A DNA stretch of 64,000 nucleotides from Levilactobacillus wangkuiensis. Its GTDB lineage: Bacteria; Bacillota; Bacilli; Lactobacillales; Lactobacillaceae. Below are positions 4,974 to 36,587 of this stretch, piece after piece. Position 1 is the first letter of the stretch. Each line of letters opens with the position of its first letter. The translations under genes were made by a program, and so were the position numbers. The stretch covers positions 1 through 64,000 of the forward strand of contig NZ_BOLM01000004.1 in NCBI RefSeq assembly GCF_016861605.1, given 5' to 3'. The notes below the pieces were generated by a model. It was not told the origin of the DNA. It saw only the letters and a list, made by a program, of their open reading frames with translations, and did not search any database.

Positions 4974-5036
4974 ATCGGTATTGTTATTTTTATTTTTCAG
5001 TGGTAAAGTAAATGACATTCCATTAAAAAAATAAGT

Positions 5037-5110
5037 GATTGCCTATATAATGCCAAGATAAGGTTGGCGAGTTTCTACCCAGAGCCGTAAACTCTGGACT
5101 ATGAGCAAAT
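5037..5110 (+). ncRNA. Purine riboswitch aptamer, guanine class
   Basis: The conserved core is intact: TATAAT, then P2 GCCAA/TTGGC, GTTTCTACC, P3 CAGAG/CTCTG with CCGTAAA in its loop, and GACTAT before the closing helix (TTGC/GCAA). The discriminating pyrimidine in GACTAT is C, which specifies guanine or hypoxanthine rather than adenine. It lies upstream of the xanthine permease gene, a typical target. Confidence 0.95.
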
Positions 5111-5163
5111 TGAGGACGAAACTCTTTTTGCCGATGAAAAGAGTTCGTCGGCGAGTTTTCAGT

Positions 5164-28688: not shown

Positions 28689-29039
28689 GTGGCAAATAAA
28701 AATGCAAAAGCCGCACGGCACGCCATCATCGTTGATATGAACGACTTTTTGATGGACTACGCTGCCAACAAGTTAGGGAAACAACCCGACTTGGCTGAAA
28801 AGGTAGCAGCTGCCGCAAAGAATGATCTTTCAGAATTAGACAGCCTATTTAAAGACAACGGTGTCGGTCGACGGACCAAGTACCTGGACCTCGCTGCGGG
28901 CTTTCTCCGCGACGAAGCCGATGCTGACGACGAAGACACCAGTCACGATTTTACCGCTGCTAGCGACGCCTTGGCTAAAGAAGCAATGGCTTACCTTAGC
29001 AGCCACACCAACGAGTTCGACCGTTGGGAAGAAGAATAA
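28689..29039 (+). CDS. Unidentified acidic protein, 116 aa
   Basis: This soluble protein starts with a GTG at 28689 after AGAGGTGA. The N-terminus is basic and helical (MANKNAKAARHAIIVDMNDFL). The middle has GVGRRTKYLDLAAGFLRDE, and the C-terminus is very acidic (DEADADDEDTS, DRWEEE). I do not recognise a family. It is divergent from pstS and ends at a bidirectional terminator. Confidence 0.75.
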   Translation: MANKNAKAARHAIIVDMNDFLMDYAANKLGKQPDLAEKVAAAAKNDLSELDSLFKDNGVGRRTKYLDLAAGFLRDEADADDEDTSHDFTAASDALAKEAMAYLSSHTNEFDRWEEE

Positions 29040-29056
29040 GCGCTGATTGAAACACA

Positions 29057-29094
29057 AAACACCCCACGAAAAAAATTCGTGAGGTGTTTTTATT
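29057..29094. terminator. Bidirectional intrinsic terminator
   Basis: AACACCCCACGAA pairs with TTCGTGAGGTGTT, with A-rich and T-rich flanks. It separates the convergent 28689 and 29303 genes. Confidence 0.88.
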
Positions 29095-29099
29095 TTGCT

Positions 29100-29303
29100 T
29101 TACTTCCACTGCCAGAGGTCAGCCTTCATGTTGGTCGCAATGATTTTGGCCAGCAAATCAACAAACTGATCGGGCATGTAGGCGGTCGTATCCAGTGTCG
29201 TTGCCTGGTCGTTGACCTTAGTGATGGTCAGGCCTTGATGTTCCAGCGTCAGCCCGTACTTGGGGGCAATCTGGCAGAGTCGTTCGACTTGTTCTTCGTT
29301 CAC
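29100..29303 (-). CDS. Unidentified small protein, 67 aa
   Basis: This 67-residue protein has no signal peptide or membrane segment. AGGAGG-like bases stand before the ATG. It reads as two helices around a short sheet (LTLEHQGLTITKVND, TAYMPDQFVDLLAKIIA). No family is recognised. It is transcribed alone. Confidence 0.7.
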   Translation of the reverse strand: MNEEQVERLCQIAPKYGLTLEHQGLTITKVNDQATTLDTTAYMPDQFVDLLAKIIATNMKADLWQWK

Positions 29304-29377
29304 GGGAGGTCCTCCTTGTCTAGTGTCTTTACCACGAGCTTAGCCAATCCCCCCGGCCACGTCAAGTTGAACTAGTC

Positions 29378-29645
29378 TTTGCTTTCGCCTCCGGGATGGT
29401 AAAAATTGACGGCACCTATCGTTCCCGACGGTGGGCTCAAACTGCCCTGCTGTGGGGAACGGCTCCAGCCTGAGAAGCGGTCTGGGGCCTCGCCTTGAAA
29501 CCTCGCTAAGGTTCGCGAGTTTCCAAGGTCGTCCCGTGCTCTAGGCTGAAAGGCCCTCAGCCAAGACCACCGACACAGCTGAGCAGTTTGGCCCACCTCT
29601 GGTCACTAACACTAGCAGCCATTTTTACCATCCCTGCGGCTGACA
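29378..29645 (+). repeat. LSR structured repeat, subtype A
   Basis: This is a full copy. The outer stem has changed on both arms: GGGATGGTAAAAAT pairs with ATTTTTACCATCCC. The inner stem pairs GGGCTCAAACTGCC with GCAGTTTGGCCC. Hairpin A is CTAGGCTGA/TCAGCCAAG. It lies upstream of the 29303 gene start, not after a stop codon. Confidence 0.85.
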
Positions 29646-29710
29646 CTAGCCCAGCTCCAACTTGACCTTGTCGTTTGTCTTCCTAACTATTTTCCACACC
29701 AATTGTTCAT

Positions 29711-29745
29711 AAATAAACCCCATGACTACGGAAAAAGCCATGAGG
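29711..29745 (-). terminator. Probable terminator on the minus strand
   Basis: On the minus strand CCTCATGGC pairs with GTCATGGGG (two G-U pairs) and is followed by TTTATTTA. It would end the HPr-like transcript after two LSR copies. Confidence 0.5.
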
Positions 29746-29816
29746 CAGAAAAGTTTTAATTTTAAAAATAGTAATTGTTATCAGCTACCAGACATAGAAA
29801 TGAACTCGCCAATGTA

Positions 29817-29996
29817 AGCGACCAGAGGCGGGCCAAGAGTCCCAGCTGTGTCGATGGTCTTAACTGAGTGAACTTTCTCAGTTTAGAGCATGGGACGTCC
29901 TTTGAGACTGGTGGTTTTCCAGGCTTAAAGGCGAACTGGAAGACCGCCCCTCAGGCTGGAAGCGGGCCCCACAGCAGGGACTCTTGAGCCCGCCAT
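29817..29996 (-). repeat. LSR structured repeat, core only
   Basis: The inner stem is perfect and unusual: CCAAGAGTCCC pairs with GGGACTCTTG. Hairpins A (CTTAACTGAG/CTCAGTTTAG) and C are clear and B is altered. The outer stem cannot be recognised. It is in tandem, same orientation, with the copy at 30059. Confidence 0.8.
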
Positions 29997-30058
29997 CAAG
30001 AACAACCTGACGACTGTCGTGAAGCAATTGGCAACACAACTGGTTCTCACAACCACCG

Positions 30059-30248
30059 TGTAAGCCGTGAGGGCGGCGAAAATAACGTCAGCTGTGGGAA
30101 TGCCCTTGGTAGTGTTCTTAGCTGCTTAGGGCATTGGCGTCTTTGAGACGTGGCCTACGGCTCAAAGCGAGGTCGAAGACCGCTCTCTGGCTTCGACCGT
30201 CCGCCCCAGCGTTCCATGTTATTTTCGCCGCCCGGTAAGGCGCTGACA
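30059..30248 (-). repeat. LSR structured repeat, subtype B (short)
   Basis: The outer stem pairs GGGCGGCGAAAATAAC with GTTATTTTCGCCGCCC, a fully compensated variant. The inner stem is absent. Hairpin A is AATGCCCTTGG../..TTAGGGCATT, B is CTTTGAG/CTCAAAG, and C is GGTCGAAG/CTTCGACC. Its end lies 16 nt after the stop of the HPr-like gene. Confidence 0.88.
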
Positions 30249-30264
30249 ACGACTGACTTGGCGT

Positions 30265-30528
30265 TTAATAACAATACTTGTCTTTGGCTAATTGCTGATG
30301 AATGGCGGCGGCTAATTGGGCTTCGTCTGGACCATCCGTCACCACCTGCACAAAGTCACCCCCATGCTTCGAAAGCTCCGCGACCTCCTGGGCTCGTTTG
30401 GGATTCAGGTCCGTGTTGCGCACCCGAATCGTCGCCGTTCCTGTGTAACGCTGACAAATTTTCTGGAGCGCGGCACTTTCGTCAGTTGCGGGCATTTCTT
30501 GGTATAATGGGAATCCGATTGTTTTCAT
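30265..30528 (-). CDS. HPr-like protein lacking the phosphorylated histidine
   Basis: This 87-residue protein has the length and strand order of HPr (PATDESAALQ at helix 1; GPDEAQLAAAIHQQL as the last helix). The active-site region has no histidine before PAT, where HPr has HARPAT, and no SIMGV-type serine motif is seen. It may be a degenerate or non-PTS relative; a ferredoxin-like fold of other origin is possible. AGGTGAT precedes the ATG. Its promoter carries a perfect cre site, so CcpA control is likely. Confidence 0.65.
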   Translation of the reverse strand: MKTIGFPLYQEMPATDESAALQKICQRYTGTATIRVRNTDLNPKRAQEVAELSKHGGDFVQVVTDGPDEAQLAAAIHQQLAKDKYCY

Positions 30529-30548
30529 CTGTAATCACCTCTGAATTA

Positions 30549-30577
30549 ATTGTAAGCGATTACATAGTCTTTGCCAA
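30549..30577 (-). promoter_or_regulatory. Promoter with perfect cre site (30551-30564)
   Basis: On the minus strand TTGGCA and TACAAT are 17 nt apart. The sequence TGTAATCGCTTACA, which matches the CcpA consensus TGWAANCGNTNWCA on both strands, covers the end of the spacer and the -10 box. CcpA bound here should repress the HPr-like gene when preferred sugars are present. Confidence 0.85.
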
Positions 30578-30737
30578 TACCTTTTCCCATTTTTCACAAA
30601 GTCACTGACCGAACCCTTCCTACAGCCGCTGCTCTAGGAAAAATCACATGGCATTTTGGTTCACGACTTTCCGAACACGCGTTCAAACCCGGGGCAAAGT
30701 GTGGTATGATATTGCCAGAAATGGAGGCGATGGCGGC

Positions 30738-33101
30738 ATGACCACCAAACTTGGCGTCCGGGAATTAGTGGAGTTCACGCTCCGTACCGGCGACCTCAGT
30801 GCCACTTCCGGCAGCCAAAACACGGCCTTACTGGGCGCACAGATCCACCGTCGTCTACAAAAACAACGCGGTGAAAATTATCAAAAGGAATACTACCTCG
30901 ATAAAGAACTGACCCTAAACGGCGACGACTACCTGCTTCACGGCCGGGCCGACGGGGTCACCCTGACCGAAGACGCCGCCAGCATCGAGGAAATCAAGAC
31001 GTCTGAAACCGTCTTTGACCAGCTGAGCGACAACACCCTGACCCTCTACTGGGCGCAGGTGAAAATTTATGCTTACCTTTTAATGGAAAAGGAATCTAAT
31101 TTAGATCAGGTCACATTGACCCTGACCTACTTTCAGACCAACACGGAAACGACTACCCAAACGGACCAAATCATCACGCGTGAAGCGGCCGCGGCCTTCT
31201 TTAACCAGGTCATTACGGAATACATTACCTGGCTTAAATTCCGCTCGGACCTGCGTGAACGACGGGACCCCACCATTCAGGCGCTGACCTTCCCCTTTGG
31301 TCAGTACCGACCGGGGCAACGCGAGCTCGCCGTGGCCGTCTACAAGACCATTCTGACCAGCAAACGCCTCTTCGCCGAGGCCCCAACTGGGACCGGGAAG
31401 ACCATTTCCACGCTGTTCCCGACCATCAAGGCGATTGGCGAGGGCGTGATTCAACGCATCTTCTACCTCACCGCCAAGCAGAGCACGCGGCGGGTGGCCG
31501 AGGAAGCCGTCGACCTGATGGCCAGTCAGGGACTGAAGCTCAAGAGCATCACCCTGACGGCCAAGGATAAGATCAAGTTTCCCGAGGAGGCCGACCTCCA
31601 GCCCGACGAGAACCCTTATATGCTGGGCTATTACGACCGGTTGAAGCCGGCCTTACTGGACCTCATTCAACATAATGACCAGCTCACCCGCCCGGTCATC
31701 GAAGAATACGCGCGCAAACATACGCTGGACCCGTTTGAATTTCAGCTGGATGCGAGCCTCTTTTGTGATATCATCATCGGCGATTACAACTACCTCTTCG
31801 ACCCGCAAGTCCACCTTCAGCGCTTCTTTGCGACCGAAGACCCCGATAACTTTTTCCTGATCGACGAAGCCCACAACCTGGTCAGTCGATCCCGCGATAT
31901 GTACTCAGCGGAAATCAATAGCCAGCCGCTGGACCGCTTAATCGAAACCAGTCGGGACCTGGCACAAGCCACGCCCAAGCTGCGACGGCGGCTCCAAGAC
32001 CTGCGTGCTACCTTTAGTGACATTGCCCAACCATTGATTGACGACGGCCAAACCGACAGTACCTTTTTGATGCCGCCGGAAAACTTCGACCACGACCTTA
32101 GCCGCTTGGTGGAGGCCATTCACGACTGGTTGGTCGACCAGCCCCAGACGCCCTTCACCCAGGCCATCCTCGACTACTACTTCGCCGCCATCAGCTACCA
32201 GCGCATCGGCGAGTACTATGACGACACCTACCGCATGCGCCTCGAGCTGGACAACGGCAATATCATGCTCAAGGAGTTGTGCCTGGACCCCAGCGCCTTT
32301 CTCGCCGACAGCCTCGCGCTGGGCCACGGCGCCGTGCTCTTCTCGGCCACCCTGTCGCCCATGGACTACTACCAAAACGTATTGGGCGGCGACCAGGACA
32401 GTCTGGCCTACCAGCTCGACTCCCCGTTTGAACCCGCGCACCAAGAAATTCTAGTCACGACCTACATTCAAACGACTTACAAGCAGCGTAACGCCAATCT
32501 CGCCAACATCTTACTGGCGATTAAAAATTTGATTGATGGCAAGACCGGCAACTATCTAATTTTTTTGCCTTCCTATAGTTATCTACTCGACGTCAGCCAG
32601 GCCTTTCATCTGGCCTACCCGCACGTCAAAACCGTCTGCCAGGAATCGCAAATGGCCGAGGCTAATCGGACGGCCTTTCTCGCCAGCTTCACGGCCAATC
32701 CCAGTGAAACGCTGGTCGGCTTTGCCCTGCTCGGTGGCATTTTCTCCGAGGGTATCGACTTGAAGGCCGACCGCTTGATTGGCGTTGGCATCGTTAGTGT
32801 CGGCTTGCCCGGACTCAATCCGGAGACCAACCTGTTGCGCGACTACTTTGACGAGCGCTCCCACCGTGGCTTTGCCTACGCCTACCAGCTCCCCGGCTTG
32901 AACAACGTGTTCCAGGCGGCCGGCCGGTTGATTCGCGGGTCGAAGGACGTGGGGGTTATTTTACTGATGGATCAACGGTTCGCCAGCCCCCGCTACACCA
33001 ACCTGTATCCACGCCACTGGCAACATTTCCGCCGAATTTATCGGCCCGAACAGCTCAGTCCCGCGATTGAAAATTTCTGGCATCAGGAGGTGCCCCAATG
33101 A
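30738..33101 (+). CDS. DinG/XPD-like helicase with N-terminal PD-(D/E)XK nuclease domain
   Basis: This 787-residue protein starts at 30738 after GGAGG. An N-terminal nuclease-like domain has Asp72 in GRADGV and Glu85-x-Lys87 in EEIKTSE. The superfamily 2 helicase part has Walker A EAPTGTGKT (214-222), DEAH box IDEAHNL (376-379), SATLSPMDYY and the motif VI region QAAGRLIRGSKD. Almost no cysteines lie between Walker A and DEAH, so the iron-sulphur cluster of XPD and DinG is absent. It overlaps the next gene by 4 nt. A role in DNA repair or defence is likely. Confidence 0.88.
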   Translation: MTTKLGVRELVEFTLRTGDLSATSGSQNTALLGAQIHRRLQKQRGENYQKEYYLDKELTLNGDDYLLHGRADGVTLTEDAASIEEIKTSETVFDQLSDNTLTLYWAQVKIYAYLLMEKESNLDQVTLTLTYFQTNTETTTQTDQIITREAAAAFFNQVITEYITWLKFRSDLRERRDPTIQALTFPFGQYRPGQRELAVAVYKTILTSKRLFAEAPTGTGKTISTLFPTIKAIGEGVIQRIFYLTAKQSTRRVAEEAVDLMASQGLKLKSITLTAKDKIKFPEEADLQPDENPYMLGYYDRLKPALLDLIQHNDQLTRPVIEEYARKHTLDPFEFQLDASLFCDIIIGDYNYLFDPQVHLQRFFATEDPDNFFLIDEAHNLVSRSRDMYSAEINSQPLDRLIETSRDLAQATPKLRRRLQDLRATFSDIAQPLIDDGQTDSTFLMPPENFDHDLSRLVEAIHDWLVDQPQTPFTQAILDYYFAAISYQRIGEYYDDTYRMRLELDNGNIMLKELCLDPSAFLADSLALGHGAVLFSATLSPMDYYQNVLGGDQDSLAYQLDSPFEPAHQEILVTTYIQTTYKQRNANLANILLAIKNLIDGKTGNYLIFLPSYSYLLDVSQAFHLAYPHVKTVCQESQMAEANRTAFLASFTANPSETLVGFALLGGIFSEGIDLKADRLIGVGIVSVGLPGLNPETNLLRDYFDERSHRGFAYAYQLPGLNNVFQAAGRLIRGSKDVGVILLMDQRFASPRYTNLYPRHWQHFRRIYRPEQLSPAIENFWHQEVPQ

Positions 33102-33790
33102 AAACCAAACTCACTTTAGAAATGGAAGCGACCCTCTACGCCTACTGCCGAGAAGCTGGCGCGTTTGCGGTCGAAGAGGTCACCATGCCCGACGACGCTG
33201 GGATTGTGGACACCCTGAGCTACCAGGAGATGTCCGATAAATCCATCGAGTGGCGCTGCTATGAGCTGAAGGTCACCAAGAGTGACTTTCACTCGAAGGC
33301 CAAGCTCTCCTTCGTCGGCCACTACAACTATTTCGTCCTGCCGCTCAAGCTCTACCAAACGGTTCAAGACGAGATTCCACCCCGCATCGGCGTCCTGATT
33401 TACCGGCCCTTCGATGCGGAAATGCTAGCGACCGCAACCGAAGCACCCAGCACCCCGGGCTACCTGACCGTGGCCCGGCCGCCGCGTCATCAGGACCTGC
33501 AAGTCTCCGCCTCGGAACTGACGACCCGCTTCATCGCCTCGCAGGCACGGGAGGTCGGCAAGGCCAAACAGATGGCGACCGGTCTCAAACAATATTCAAC
33601 CGACCGGCTCTACCAGGAATTGAAGAAACGCCATCAACATTATGATATCTACGATCCGGATGCCAACTTCTATGATCAGTTCATCGAGGATACGCAGTCG
33701 ACGGCGGTCACGGCCCTTCAGAGCGAAATCGATGCCCTAAACTTAGAACGGCACGACCTCCAGCAAGAGTTAAAGGAGCAGCGGCCATGA
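33098..33790 (+). CDS. PD-(D/E)XK nuclease-like protein (MmcB/sce7726-like)
   Basis: This 230-residue protein has a compact nuclease-like core: AGIVDTLSY, then EWRCYELKVTKSDF, in which E-x-K forms the PD-(D/E)XK signature. The C-terminal third is charged and ends in a coiled coil. It overlaps both neighbours (ATGA junctions), so all three proteins are probably made together. Its partner downstream resembles sce7725, which is often found next to sce7726 nuclease-like proteins; this may be the equivalent. The exact activity is unknown. Confidence 0.7.
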   Translation: MKTKLTLEMEATLYAYCREAGAFAVEEVTMPDDAGIVDTLSYQEMSDKSIEWRCYELKVTKSDFHSKAKLSFVGHYNYFVLPLKLYQTVQDEIPPRIGVLIYRPFDAEMLATATEAPSTPGYLTVARPPRHQDLQVSASELTTRFIASQAREVGKAKQMATGLKQYSTDRLYQELKKRHQHYDIYDPDANFYDQFIEDTQSTAVTALQSEIDALNLERHDLQQELKEQRP

Positions 33791-34701
33791 TTTATTTCCC
33801 TTACTTTCGCGGGCGGCAATTCGACCTTTTGGCCCTGAAAAATATTGCCCAACAACACATTCTGCCACCGAACATCATCCCGATTATCGAACCTGTCCGG
33901 GACATCCGGGCTTTGCCCCAGACCGTGGCGGCCTTCGTCGAACACGACCAACCGCTAGTGGTGATCGCCAATCCGACCGTCAGTGACTACGCCTTGACCC
34001 AACAAAAGCTCCACGATTGGCGGCCCTACGCGGATAATCCCCAGTTAATCGTCGGCCATATTCTGACGCCCACCATCATCCCCGCGAGTCTTCAACCAGC
34101 CGCGGAACACCGGACGTTGCTGGTCGGTCGCCAATACGATGAACTGGTTGCCGCCCAACATGCTGGCTGGCTCAACGACCCGAGCTACCTGCTAGTACCG
34201 CCTGAAGCACGGATTCGCCAGCTCATCACCCGGCCCACCGTCAGTCTCTTTGACCATGCCTGGATTCCGGAGCACGAGCGCAGTTACGCCGACATCACCG
34301 ATGGCTTCTTCAGTGACGACTGGGTGCTCGCCACCCTCGACAGCTATCACGGCGTCAGTGACTACACGATTGGTGGCGCCCATTACAGCGAGCACGGCTA
34401 CCCGGCCCGCGCCGTCACCCTGCACCTCACCTACTTTCAGGGTGACCAATTGCGCATCCACCGCTTCGTTTCCGATGACCGCGAAGACTTCCGCCATCCC
34501 AAGGAGAAATTTTTCCAGGCCGTTGCCAAGCTGGCCGCCTGGTTGCCAGACCACCCGGATGTCCAAACACCGGCGGCTCTGGCCCTGGCGGACTACCATG
34601 CCACGCAACATTTCCCCGGACTGGGCGTGGTGAAGCGCCTCAGCCTGGAGCACCATCTACAAACTATGGCCACTTACTTTAAAGCACACTATCCAGAATA
34701 A
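33787..34701 (+). CDS. sce7725-family (beta-protein-like) protein
   Basis: The 304-residue protein begins MIYFPYFRGRQFDLLALKNI and continues with IIPIIEPVRD, the pattern I associate with the sce7725 family and the phage T4 beta-protein fold (a TIM-barrel-like shape). It ends with PGLGVVKRLSLEHHL. No catalytic residues can be assigned. It overlaps the nuclease-like gene by 4 nt and closes the cassette. The first LSR copy follows 16 nt after its stop. Confidence 0.75.
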   Translation: MIYFPYFRGRQFDLLALKNIAQQHILPPNIIPIIEPVRDIRALPQTVAAFVEHDQPLVVIANPTVSDYALTQQKLHDWRPYADNPQLIVGHILTPTIIPASLQPAAEHRTLLVGRQYDELVAAQHAGWLNDPSYLLVPPEARIRQLITRPTVSLFDHAWIPEHERSYADITDGFFSDDWVLATLDSYHGVSDYTIGGAHYSEHGYPARAVTLHLTYFQGDQLRIHRFVSDDREDFRHPKEKFFQAVAKLAAWLPDHPDVQTPAALALADYHATQHFPGLGVVKRLSLEHHLQTMATYFKAHYPE

Positions 34702-34717
34702 GGTTGTCGAGATTGCC

Positions 34718-34908
34718 GTTCCCGGCGGCGGATTCAACCTGATCTGCTGTGGGGAACGGTTTCGGCCTGTGAAGCGGTCCTACACCTCGCCTGAAAGCCT
34801 GGAAAGCCACCAGTCTCCCAGGTCGTCCCGTGCTCTAAACCGAGAAAACCACTCAGTTAAGACCACCGACACAGCTGTCCAGGTTGATCCGCCTCTGGTC
34901 ACTAATAC
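34718..34908 (+). repeat. LSR structured repeat, subtype A, weak outer stem
   Basis: The inner stem is compensated in full: GGCGGATTCAACCTG pairs with CAGGTTGATCCGCC. Hairpins C, B (a changed form) and A (CTAAACCGAG/CTCAGTTAAG) are present. The outer stem is poorly kept. It starts 16 nt after the sce7725 stop, gene-sense. Confidence 0.85.
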
Positions 34909-35216
34909 TGTCCAGCTATTTCTTGATTTGCGAAATCAGACCAGGCCACGAATAGTTAACATCCCCCTATGCTAGTGGAAATTGCTCACAACAAATCGCA
35001 TCCTTAACACATCACTAGTTTGCGTGAGAGACCCGCTACCAGCCGTCAGACCGTGAAAATTAGTAACACTGCACAACGTTAGTGACGACCTCATTTTTAA
35101 TTTGTGAAACATGACCCGTCTGCCAATCGTTAAAGCACGCTTCCACATTAATGTAGAAAAATTCATACCACAGTAGAACATTGCCAACGAATCGCTTAGT
35201 TGCATGGAAAATCCAC
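34909..35216. other. Intergenic stretch without recognisable feature
   Basis: About 300 nt between two inverted LSR copies. I see no open frame with a ribosome site and no terminator. GTTAGTGACG and similar fragments may be remains of older repeats. Confidence 0.4.
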
Positions 35217-35445
35217 GTCAGCCGCAGGATTGGTAAAATGAACCCGCGAGGACAATGTCAGTGACCAGAGGCAGATCAACTTTCCCAGCTGTGTCGGTGG
35301 GCTAGGCTGGGGAGAATTTCCCCAGCCTAGCCCACGGGGCAACCTTTGAGACCGCTTTTCAGGCTCAAAGTTGAGGTGGAAGCCCGCCCTTCGGCTGGAA
35401 CCGACCCCATAGCAGGGAAGGTTGAATCTGCCGCCGGGAACGCCA
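35217..35445 (-). repeat. LSR structured repeat, subtype A, weak outer stem
   Basis: The inner stem pairs GGCAGATCAAC with GTTGAATCTGCC, another compensated variant. Hairpin A is long (GGGCTAGGCTGGGG/CCCCAGCCTAGCCC). Hairpins B and C are standard. The 5' arm GTCAGCCGCAGG is kept, but the 3' arm is diverged. It lies after the terminator of the phosphogluconolactonase gene. Confidence 0.85.
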
Positions 35446-35491
35446 CTTTCGGCCACCGCGTTCCGGCTCAATTTTCAACAGTCAAAAGACA

Positions 35492-35528
35492 TAAAAATAG
35501 CGCCTGGGAAAAATTTTCCAAGCGCTAT
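35492..35528 (-). terminator. Intrinsic terminator of the pgl gene
   Basis: On the minus strand ATAGCGCTTGGAAAA pairs with TTCCCAGGCGCTAT and is followed by TTTTATG. Confidence 0.85.
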
Positions 35529-35540
35529 CCGTTTAATTAT

Positions 35541-36587
35541 TTAGAATTTAGCTGGTAAGACGCTGACACCTTCTGGGACCATGAAGTCCTTTTGGGCCAA
35601 CGTTAACTTCCCACTCTCGGCGTCGCGACTGAACAACGAAGCGTTATCGGAGTTTTGGTTAACGACCAGCAATAAGCTTTGGTCTGACGTCCAGTTGAAG
35701 TCCCGTGGGAAGTCACCTTCCGTGGAGATCCGTTGAACCAGCGTCAACGTGCCATCATCAGCGGTGGCGAAGACAGCCAGGGAGTTGTTCCCCCGGTTTG
35801 AGACGTAAATGAACCGCCCGTCCTTGCTCATGCGAATGGCTGCGGCACCGTTGTGCGTGGTCCAGTCGGCTGGAATCGTGGAGATGATACTCTTCACAGC
35901 CAGCTTGCCGGTGGCGGCGTCGTAGCTTAACGTGGCCACGTTGCTGCTTAATTCACCAACGAGGTAAGCGACACCCTTTTTGTCATCAAAGACGATGTGC
36001 CGTGGGCCGTAGCCAGCTGGCATGTCGAGTTGACTGACGGGAGATAATTTGCCATCATCAGAAACGTCATAAACGTAAACCTTGTCGGACCCTAAGTCAC
36101 AAACGACTAAGCGGTTGTCCGGCGTCAGGTCAGCGAAGTGGGGATGGGGACCGTCAGCTTGTTCAGGCGCTGGGCCAACGGGATCCTGGTCAACGACCTT
36201 ATCCGTTTCCTTCAACGTCCCATCAGCGGCGATGGCGTAAACCGTCACAGCAGCCGTATGGTAATTGGCCGTGTAGACCAACTGCCGCGCTTCATCAACC
36301 GACACGTAGGCTGGTGAGGCACCCAATTCCAAGACCTGTTGAATGGCCCGTGGCTTTTCTTCAGATACATCATAGATGATCAACCCACCGTGGGTCGTGC
36401 CATCCGTTTCTTTTTTGTTGATGACGTACAGGCGCTTAGCTGCAGCCTTTGCGATGTAAGTCGGGCTCCCAGCTGATGCTAACCATTCGCAGTCCATTAA
36501 CTTAGGCGCTGCGGTGTCTACGGTTACCCGGTAAATCCCACGACTAATGCGCTTGGTATAAGTTCCAATGTAAAAATCTTCCGTCAT
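35541..36587 (-). CDS. pgl: 6-phosphogluconolactonase-like seven-bladed propeller (lactonase family)
   Basis: This protein of about 348 residues has the YkgB/lactonase beta-propeller. Repeated motifs such as YVSNRGNNSLAVF, DLGSDKVYVY and GPRHIVFDDK mark the blades. It hydrolyses 6-phosphogluconolactone in the pentose phosphate route. I start it at 36587 (MTEDFYIGTYT), with AAAGGGG upstream; the longer TTG start is less likely. It is monocistronic. Confidence 0.9.
   Translation of the reverse strand: MTEDFYIGTYTKRISRGIYRVTVDTAAPKLMDCEWLASAGSPTYIAKAAAKRLYVINKKETDGTTHGGLIIYDVSEEKPRAIQQVLELGASPAYVSVDEARQLVYTANYHTAAVTVYAIAADGTLKETDKVVDQDPVGPAPEQADGPHPHFADLTPDNRLVVCDLGSDKVYVYDVSDDGKLSPVSQLDMPAGYGPRHIVFDDKKGVAYLVGELSSNVATLSYDAATGKLAVKSIISTIPADWTTHNGAAAIRMSKDGRFIYVSNRGNNSLAVFATADDGTLTLVQRISTEGDFPRDFNWTSDQSLLLVVNQNSDNASLFSRDAESGKLTLAQKDFMVPEGVSVLPAKF

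Follow-up and report, generated by a model that had tools for sequence, protein, structure and literature searches.

A three-gene operon of Levilactobacillus wangkuiensis as a probable LexA-repressed DNA repair unit

What is a helicase that is fused to a nuclease-like domain, and encoded together with a second nuclease-like protein and a protein of the sce7725 family, doing in a lactic acid bacterium? The question is raised by three adjoining genes, here called HEL, NUC and SCE, in a 64,000-nucleotide stretch of Levilactobacillus wangkuiensis DNA (contig NZ_BOLM01000004.1, positions 1 to 64,000; hereafter the window). An earlier note on this DNA had suggested DNA processing by the trio, with defence against phages or plasmids as a possibility. 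Our analysis supports a role in DNA processing for the helicase and the two nuclease folds, and leads us to the view that HEL-NUC-SCE is probably a DNA-damage-inducible repair operon repressed by LexA, both LexA binding and induction being predicted. What carries this reading is the domain content of the trio, its conserved catalytic residues, core synteny and consistent co-occurrence, and conserved SOS-box-like sites. The trio looks like a stable repair kit of lactic acid bacteria, not a phage-defence island.

All three genes lie on the forward strand. HEL (30738..33101) encodes an EndoDinG-like helicase-nuclease of 787 aa, NUC (33098..33790) a predicted MmcB-like PD-(D/E)XK nuclease of 230 aa that ends in a long C-terminal helix, and SCE (33787..34701) an sce7725 family protein of 304 aa with a predicted TIM-barrel-like structure. 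As the earlier note had read them, the reading frames are joined by ATGA overlaps, at 33098-33101 between HEL and NUC and at 33787-33790 between NUC and SCE. A second in-frame ATG for HEL lies farther upstream, at 30648; the start at 30738 is preferred because it is preceded by a ribosome-binding site, GGAGG (30723..30727, forward strand), and lies past a promoter-like site. The conservation of the trio in other species makes it unlikely that these are chance reading frames.

Predicted LexA control

Upstream of HEL, at 30672..30685 on the forward strand, is an SOS (LexA) box, CGAACACGCGTTCA, which matches CGAACRNRYGTTCG at 13 of 14 positions, has an exact GAAC-N4-GTTC core and is conserved in the genus Levilactobacillus. 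The LexA box of B. subtilis and S. aureus is given in a table of PMC9578287 as CGAACN4GTTCG. The box at HEL overlaps the -35 element of the promoter-like site (TTCAAA-17 nt-TATGAT, with TG before the -10; 30682..30710, forward strand), which is weak when taken alone, two such sites being found where 1.8 are expected in shuffles. In the 3.1-Mb genome of L. wangkuiensis the exact sequence CGAACN4GTTC occurs at 10 distinct sites, one at HEL and three upstream of a Y-family polymerase gene (at about 300 bp), dnaE and parE. The genome has a lexA gene, with CGAACATCTGTTTG upstream of it, which scores 12/14 on the strand of the gene and 13/14 on the other.

In relatives a box was counted where at least 12 of 14 positions matched within -150 to +20 of a start. 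The first set comprised genes that had an alignable start and an upstream region contained in the locus (loci L108-L110, repeats of L073, L074 and L076, were left out), and the survey outside the Lactobacillaceae covered 51 of the 58 genomes with a full-length NUC. Where the NUC-SCE pair lies apart from HEL, it has a box in 12/18 genomes of the first set and 29/33 of the second, or 41/51 genomes and eight of nine genera. The same score is reached by 5/706 upstream regions of other genes and 18/3000 shuffles (0.6-0.7%), and by none of the 31 NUC genes that lie inside an operon. We regard the box before the separate NUC as the strongest point, because the NUC-SCE pair then has a site of its own, and SOS boxes before both the operon and the separate pair point to a role in repair. 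Before HEL itself, a box is present in 27/53 cases in the first set (20 of the 27 scoring 13) and 12/27 in the second, and in 7/7 genomes of one genus (g18) of family f3, probably the Enterococcaceae. The named loci, 80 of 194 relatives kept, derive partly from the same assemblies as the other genome set and so are not independent of it. In these, a HEL box of at least 12 within 200 bp was found in 23/26 Levilactobacillus loci (the other three have theirs at -325 to -693), 14/18 of Companilactobacillus, 4/11 of Lactiplantibacillus, 1/4 of Lacticaseibacillus and 4/4 from uncultured or unplaced organisms. Levilactobacillus brevis ATCC 14869 (locus L191) is among the strains that carry the operon, with a box scoring 13/14.

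Distribution, synteny and the weight of the evidence

Presence of the trio within the genus is not sporadic. HEL was found in all 34 congeners sampled (in one split over two contigs) and NUC and SCE in 33, the remaining congener keeping HEL without either partner; the closest NUC among relatives, that of L. lanxiensis, is 99% identical. Wide flanks were read at 28 congener loci; HEL is between pst genes and pgl in every one, and NUC and SCE accompany it in 27. This constancy at a single pst/pgl site does not agree with a variable region, and a variable defence cassette was rejected, the trio being core and syntenic. Estimates of dN/dS for the trio, where obtainable, are 0.03-0.13, with dS near saturation (against 10 congeners, several pairs saturated). 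Across 75 loci, the window included, distances between pairs of loci agree closely from one of the three proteins to another (correlations of 0.94-0.97), which fits vertical inheritance.

These observations bear on the alternative that the trio is a domesticated anti-invader system, in which HEL and NUC would degrade phage or plasmid DNA and SOS control would act as an infection trigger. Such a role would suit the occurrence of sce7725 relatives on plasmids and, together with a RES NAD+ phosphorylase, at scattered loci, the NUC-SCE pair borne by an Enterococcus faecium plasmid, the NUC relatives found in phages, and the match of HEL to the PADLOC type IV DinG model (380 bits). However, it agrees poorly with a trio that is core and syntenic in its genus, has pst and pgl genes around it and shows low dN/dS, and neither NUC nor SCE has a PADLOC match up to E 1; we hold it to be unlikely. 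The earlier note had named a core and syntenic position, together with a known repair role, as what would overturn the idea of defence. The position was found, and defence is not supported; a published repair role for the trio was not found in the open-access literature.

Across 395 genomes of the order, with HEL counted at E <= 1e-40, full-length NUC occurs in 81, all of which have both SCE and HEL. SCE occurs without NUC or HEL in five other genomes, and HEL without a full-length NUC in 51 of the 132 genomes that have it. In the named loci SCE is present in 80/80 and HEL lies directly upstream of NUC in 75/80. Outside the Lactobacillaceae HEL adjoins NUC in 0/18 loci read, and by coordinates it lies at least 6.6 kb from NUC or on another contig in 51 genomes. 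The genomes with HEL and no full-length NUC, and the separation of NUC-SCE from HEL in family f3, would be expected if HEL were an SOS repair helicase in its own right and NUC-SCE a separate two-gene unit, for instance a nuclease with its regulator, merely joined in the Lactobacillaceae. However, a full-length NUC is never found without HEL, the two adjoin in most named loci, and both carry SOS boxes in genus g18 of f3, so that we consider two unconnected units improbable.

Several observations weigh against LexA control and a common repair role, which we nonetheless prefer. Six other exact CGAACN4GTTC sites in the L. wangkuiensis genome include mraZ, a small helix-turn-helix gene and a position within a phage-like gene, and the reversed pattern has 22 matches there versus 13 forward; an exact match alone is therefore not proof. 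No site at the recA gene of this genome, which is usually under SOS control, scores more than 11/14. Only 4/41 boxes before the separate NUC have an exact GAAC-N4-GTTC core, the rest being off by at least one base, and 51/2640 random windows reach 12/14, though these are able to contain real boxes. HEL has no box at this score in 26/53 and 15/27 of the two sets, none of six genomes of f3 genus g327 has one before NUC, and in Secundilactobacillus the operon has a box in 0/10 loci, with none of at least 12/14 within 1 kb either. Genomes within a genus are not independent, and shared ancestry accounts for part of the co-occurrence. NUC also scores below the gathering threshold of PF06319, the Pfam family of proteins like MmcB.

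Other features were observed around these genes. Two of the six other exact sites, CGAACAAACGTTC (both strands), lie near the starts of similar-looking small genes without a Pfam match (L159:145-549 and L162:1218-1601, contigs 16 and 29), which are possible new SOS genes. The E. faecium pair is on the conjugative plasmid p114-2, annotated as a hypothetical protein and sce7725. The intergenic DNA flanking the operon, at 29420-30003 and 34693-35466, holds a repeat roughly 200 bp long, frequently present as inverted pairs some 300-700 bp apart, with at least 56 matches in the genome (40 of 274 candidates scored); it is abundant, apparently non-coding and without an Rfam match. Elsewhere in the window, a purine riboswitch lies at 5023-5121 (70 bits).

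The three proteins and a possible order of events

In profile searches HEL matches Helicase_C_2 (4.8e-37), DEAD_2 (5.3e-8) and also DinG/XPD models, and PDB entry 9kqh is a solved relative (498 bits) covering residues 3-762. Among 53 proteins aligned from the sampled loci, the helicase motifs are kept (Walker A K221, DEAH D376/E377, motif VI R730/R733). The N-terminus matches Cas4 models weakly (E 2e-4 and 4e-6), and its RecB/Cas4-type nuclease site is intact, with H37, D72, E85, K87, Q107 and Y111 conserved; H37 is present in 52/53 rows (one gap) and D72, E85 and K87 in 53/53. The stretch that holds the iron-sulphur (Fe-S) cysteines in relatives, at 31575..31730 on the forward strand, reads KDKIKF...LDPFE here versus KDKICF...LCPFE there, the four XPD-type cysteines visible in 9kqh being replaced by K, L, N and D. 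All four are lost in 40/40 HEL proteins aligned from the same family; they are kept in 9/13 from other families and lost in f3 genus g327 (4/4). As judged from these alignments, HEL has the EndoDinG architecture and is at most an Fe-S-less derivative, with predicted endonuclease and 5'-3' helicase activities, which bears out the earlier description of a DinG/XPD-like helicase with an N-terminal nuclease domain and no Fe-S cysteines. A type IV CRISPR helicase was rejected despite the score of the PADLOC model typeIV_DinG (380 bits, 5.9e-114), given the fused nuclease domain and the lack of a CRISPR array beside HEL. No CRISPR-like array occurs in 29000-35600 around the operon, and the neighbours read are pst and pgl genes, not csf, no profile search having been aimed at csf.

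For NUC, the assignment to a PD-(D/E)XK-like fold made in the earlier note is upheld by D38, E56 and K58, which are invariant in alignments of 17 and 45 sequences, and by the predicted fold. The best structural match of its AlphaFold model (pLDDT 83) is 3dnx (Z 14.7, rmsd 3.2, 143 residues aligned), which we take to be an MmcB protein; nucleases of restriction and repair follow, at Z 8.1 or lower. With Foldseek alone the model has no match at E <= 0.001, and the NUC profile has none among PDB sequences. By sequence, a plasmid protein of Selenomonas that carries an MmcB family annotation shares 40% identity with NUC over 124 aa (E 1e-23). This protein passes PF06319 (23.6 bits against a cut-off of 22) and has a weak link to 3dnx (E 0.22). 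Pfam has no reliable match for NUC, so assignment to MmcB by Pfam alone failed and was reached only via this relative; PF06319 is not among the 22 Pfam families listed for the 17 members of the diverse NUC alignment. PHROG_2776 matches 17/17 of these members and phrog_5429, a DNA repair protein family, 15/17. NUC as a homologue of sce7726 was rejected (hhalign probability 0.4), and the sce7726 model NF033832 does not match it up to E 1.

SCE scores 277.6 bits against the sce7725 model NF033831, whose curated cut-off is 60, and so belongs to the family to which it had been likened. Its predicted structure (pLDDT 89.5) is TIM-barrel-like; we claim no enzyme class for it because it matches many unrelated TIM barrels about equally well (Z 9-10). 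Endonuclease IV-type proteins are not in the list of structural matches, an absence that excludes nothing, and the SCE profile has two weak matches only among PDB sequences (E 1.5 and 1.8). Seventeen residues are invariant in an 18-sequence alignment of core and scattered sce7725 proteins. The invariant polar residues R8, E35, N62, D156 and D192 fall at or just after predicted strand ends, positions that in the model are consistent with a barrel active site. No function for sce7725 was found in the open-access literature.

Elsewhere in the phylum sce7725 is sporadic (9/398 sampled genomes, that of L. wangkuiensis included). At 12/12 scattered loci read (L099-L105, L107, L147-L150) it adjoins sce7726-like and RES-like genes, the RES-like gene of L101 being in two pieces; at a thirteenth, L106, a broken sce7725 adjoins an sce7726-like gene. 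The representatives tested match NF033832 (three) and the RES family PF08808 (one), and the annotations of two plasmids (L264, L265) agree with the triplet. L. koreensis has two copies of sce7725 and with them both kinds, trio-type and scattered (the latter at L107, on contig 94). No SOS box above 11/14 precedes the sce7726 genes, whose proteins match the PADLOC model 'cll' at about 1e-15. The triplet, from its gene content, looks like a suicide-type defence cassette, of which no description was found in the open-access literature. It is a different triplet from the trio; the pairing of sce7725 with sce7726 mentioned in the earlier note holds for the scattered loci and plasmids, and no sce7726 gene is present at our locus.

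The RES NAD+ phosphorylase fold is known from toxins. Its company with scattered sce7725, and the tight two-gene overlap of NUC and SCE, would suit an SOS-triggered self-damaging module, in which NUC cuts the chromosome or cellular RNA to halt growth and SCE restrains it. However, there is no RES gene at the trio locus, NUC resembles a protective repair nuclease, and the pair, absent from one congener (G021) that keeps HEL, is otherwise core, and we think such a role highly improbable. As a more speculative proposal, which we advance tentatively and with considerable doubt, sce7725 may be a new TIM-barrel protein, either an enzyme or a ligand sensor, whose partner is a PD-(D/E)XK-like protein. 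Together the two would form a lesion-processing core that is wired in two ways, as the SOS-controlled EndoDinG operon on the one hand and, on the other, as the scattered, partly plasmid-borne RES cassette, in which an NAD+-destroying effector would replace the helicase.

For the repair operon that we favour, the following course of events may be envisaged, in which the activities of the enzymes, what they act on, the sequence of steps, the part played by SCE and the lesion are all predicted. DNA damage would lead to RecA-driven cleavage of LexA, freeing the promoter so that the three proteins are co-produced. NUC would cut DNA at or near the damage, for which interstrand crosslinks are the best guess by analogy with MmcB. 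HEL would load on the resulting single strand and unwind 5' to 3' like other XPD/DinG helicases, while its RecB/Cas4-type nuclease would trim the displaced strand. SCE would act together with NUC, whether it binds or processes the product that bears the lesion or instead controls NUC.

Comparison with known systems

Such an operon would give sce7725, an annotated family lacking an assigned function, its first testable one, and the barely studied EndoDinG helicases are predicted to have a place in a DNA-damage regulon. An MmcB-like repair route is suggested for lactic acid bacteria, and HEL, having lost the Fe-S cysteines, would be a naturally occurring XPD-type helicase that functions in the absence of the cluster. 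Should the same core be common to the scattered sce7726-sce7725-RES cassette, a repair module would be tied to a candidate suicide-defence module.

The section on EndoDinG in PMC11981726 (section 3.7) describes an N-terminal PD-(D/E)XK domain, in which H, D, E and K are conserved, and an XPD/DinG helicase core. HEL has the same nuclease-domain residues fused to the same core. The class described there carries a conserved CCCC Fe-S domain, whereas HEL lacks all four cysteines, and that section describes neither partner genes nor LexA control. CasDinG, the type IV CRISPR helicase, also has its helicase core in common with HEL, but the nuclease domain of HEL is N-terminal, no CRISPR-like array adjoins it, and its neighbours are pst and pgl genes. 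MmcB of Caulobacter (PF06319) is, in a passage of PMC9578287, an SOS-regulated PD-(D/E)XK endonuclease that protects against mitomycin C. It is the nearest characterised parallel to NUC, which is likewise a PD-(D/E)XK protein with predicted nuclease activity and predicted LexA-type regulation; NUC differs in falling below the Pfam cut-off and in having a long C-terminal helix and a constant sce7725 partner. The sce7725 proteins of the sce7726-sce7725-RES cassette have the 17 invariant residues in common with SCE, and their partner is again a protein of the D-X(n)-E-X-K kind. In contrast, the partner of SCE is NUC, no RES gene accompanies it, an SOS box precedes its operon, and the trio is core, not scattered.

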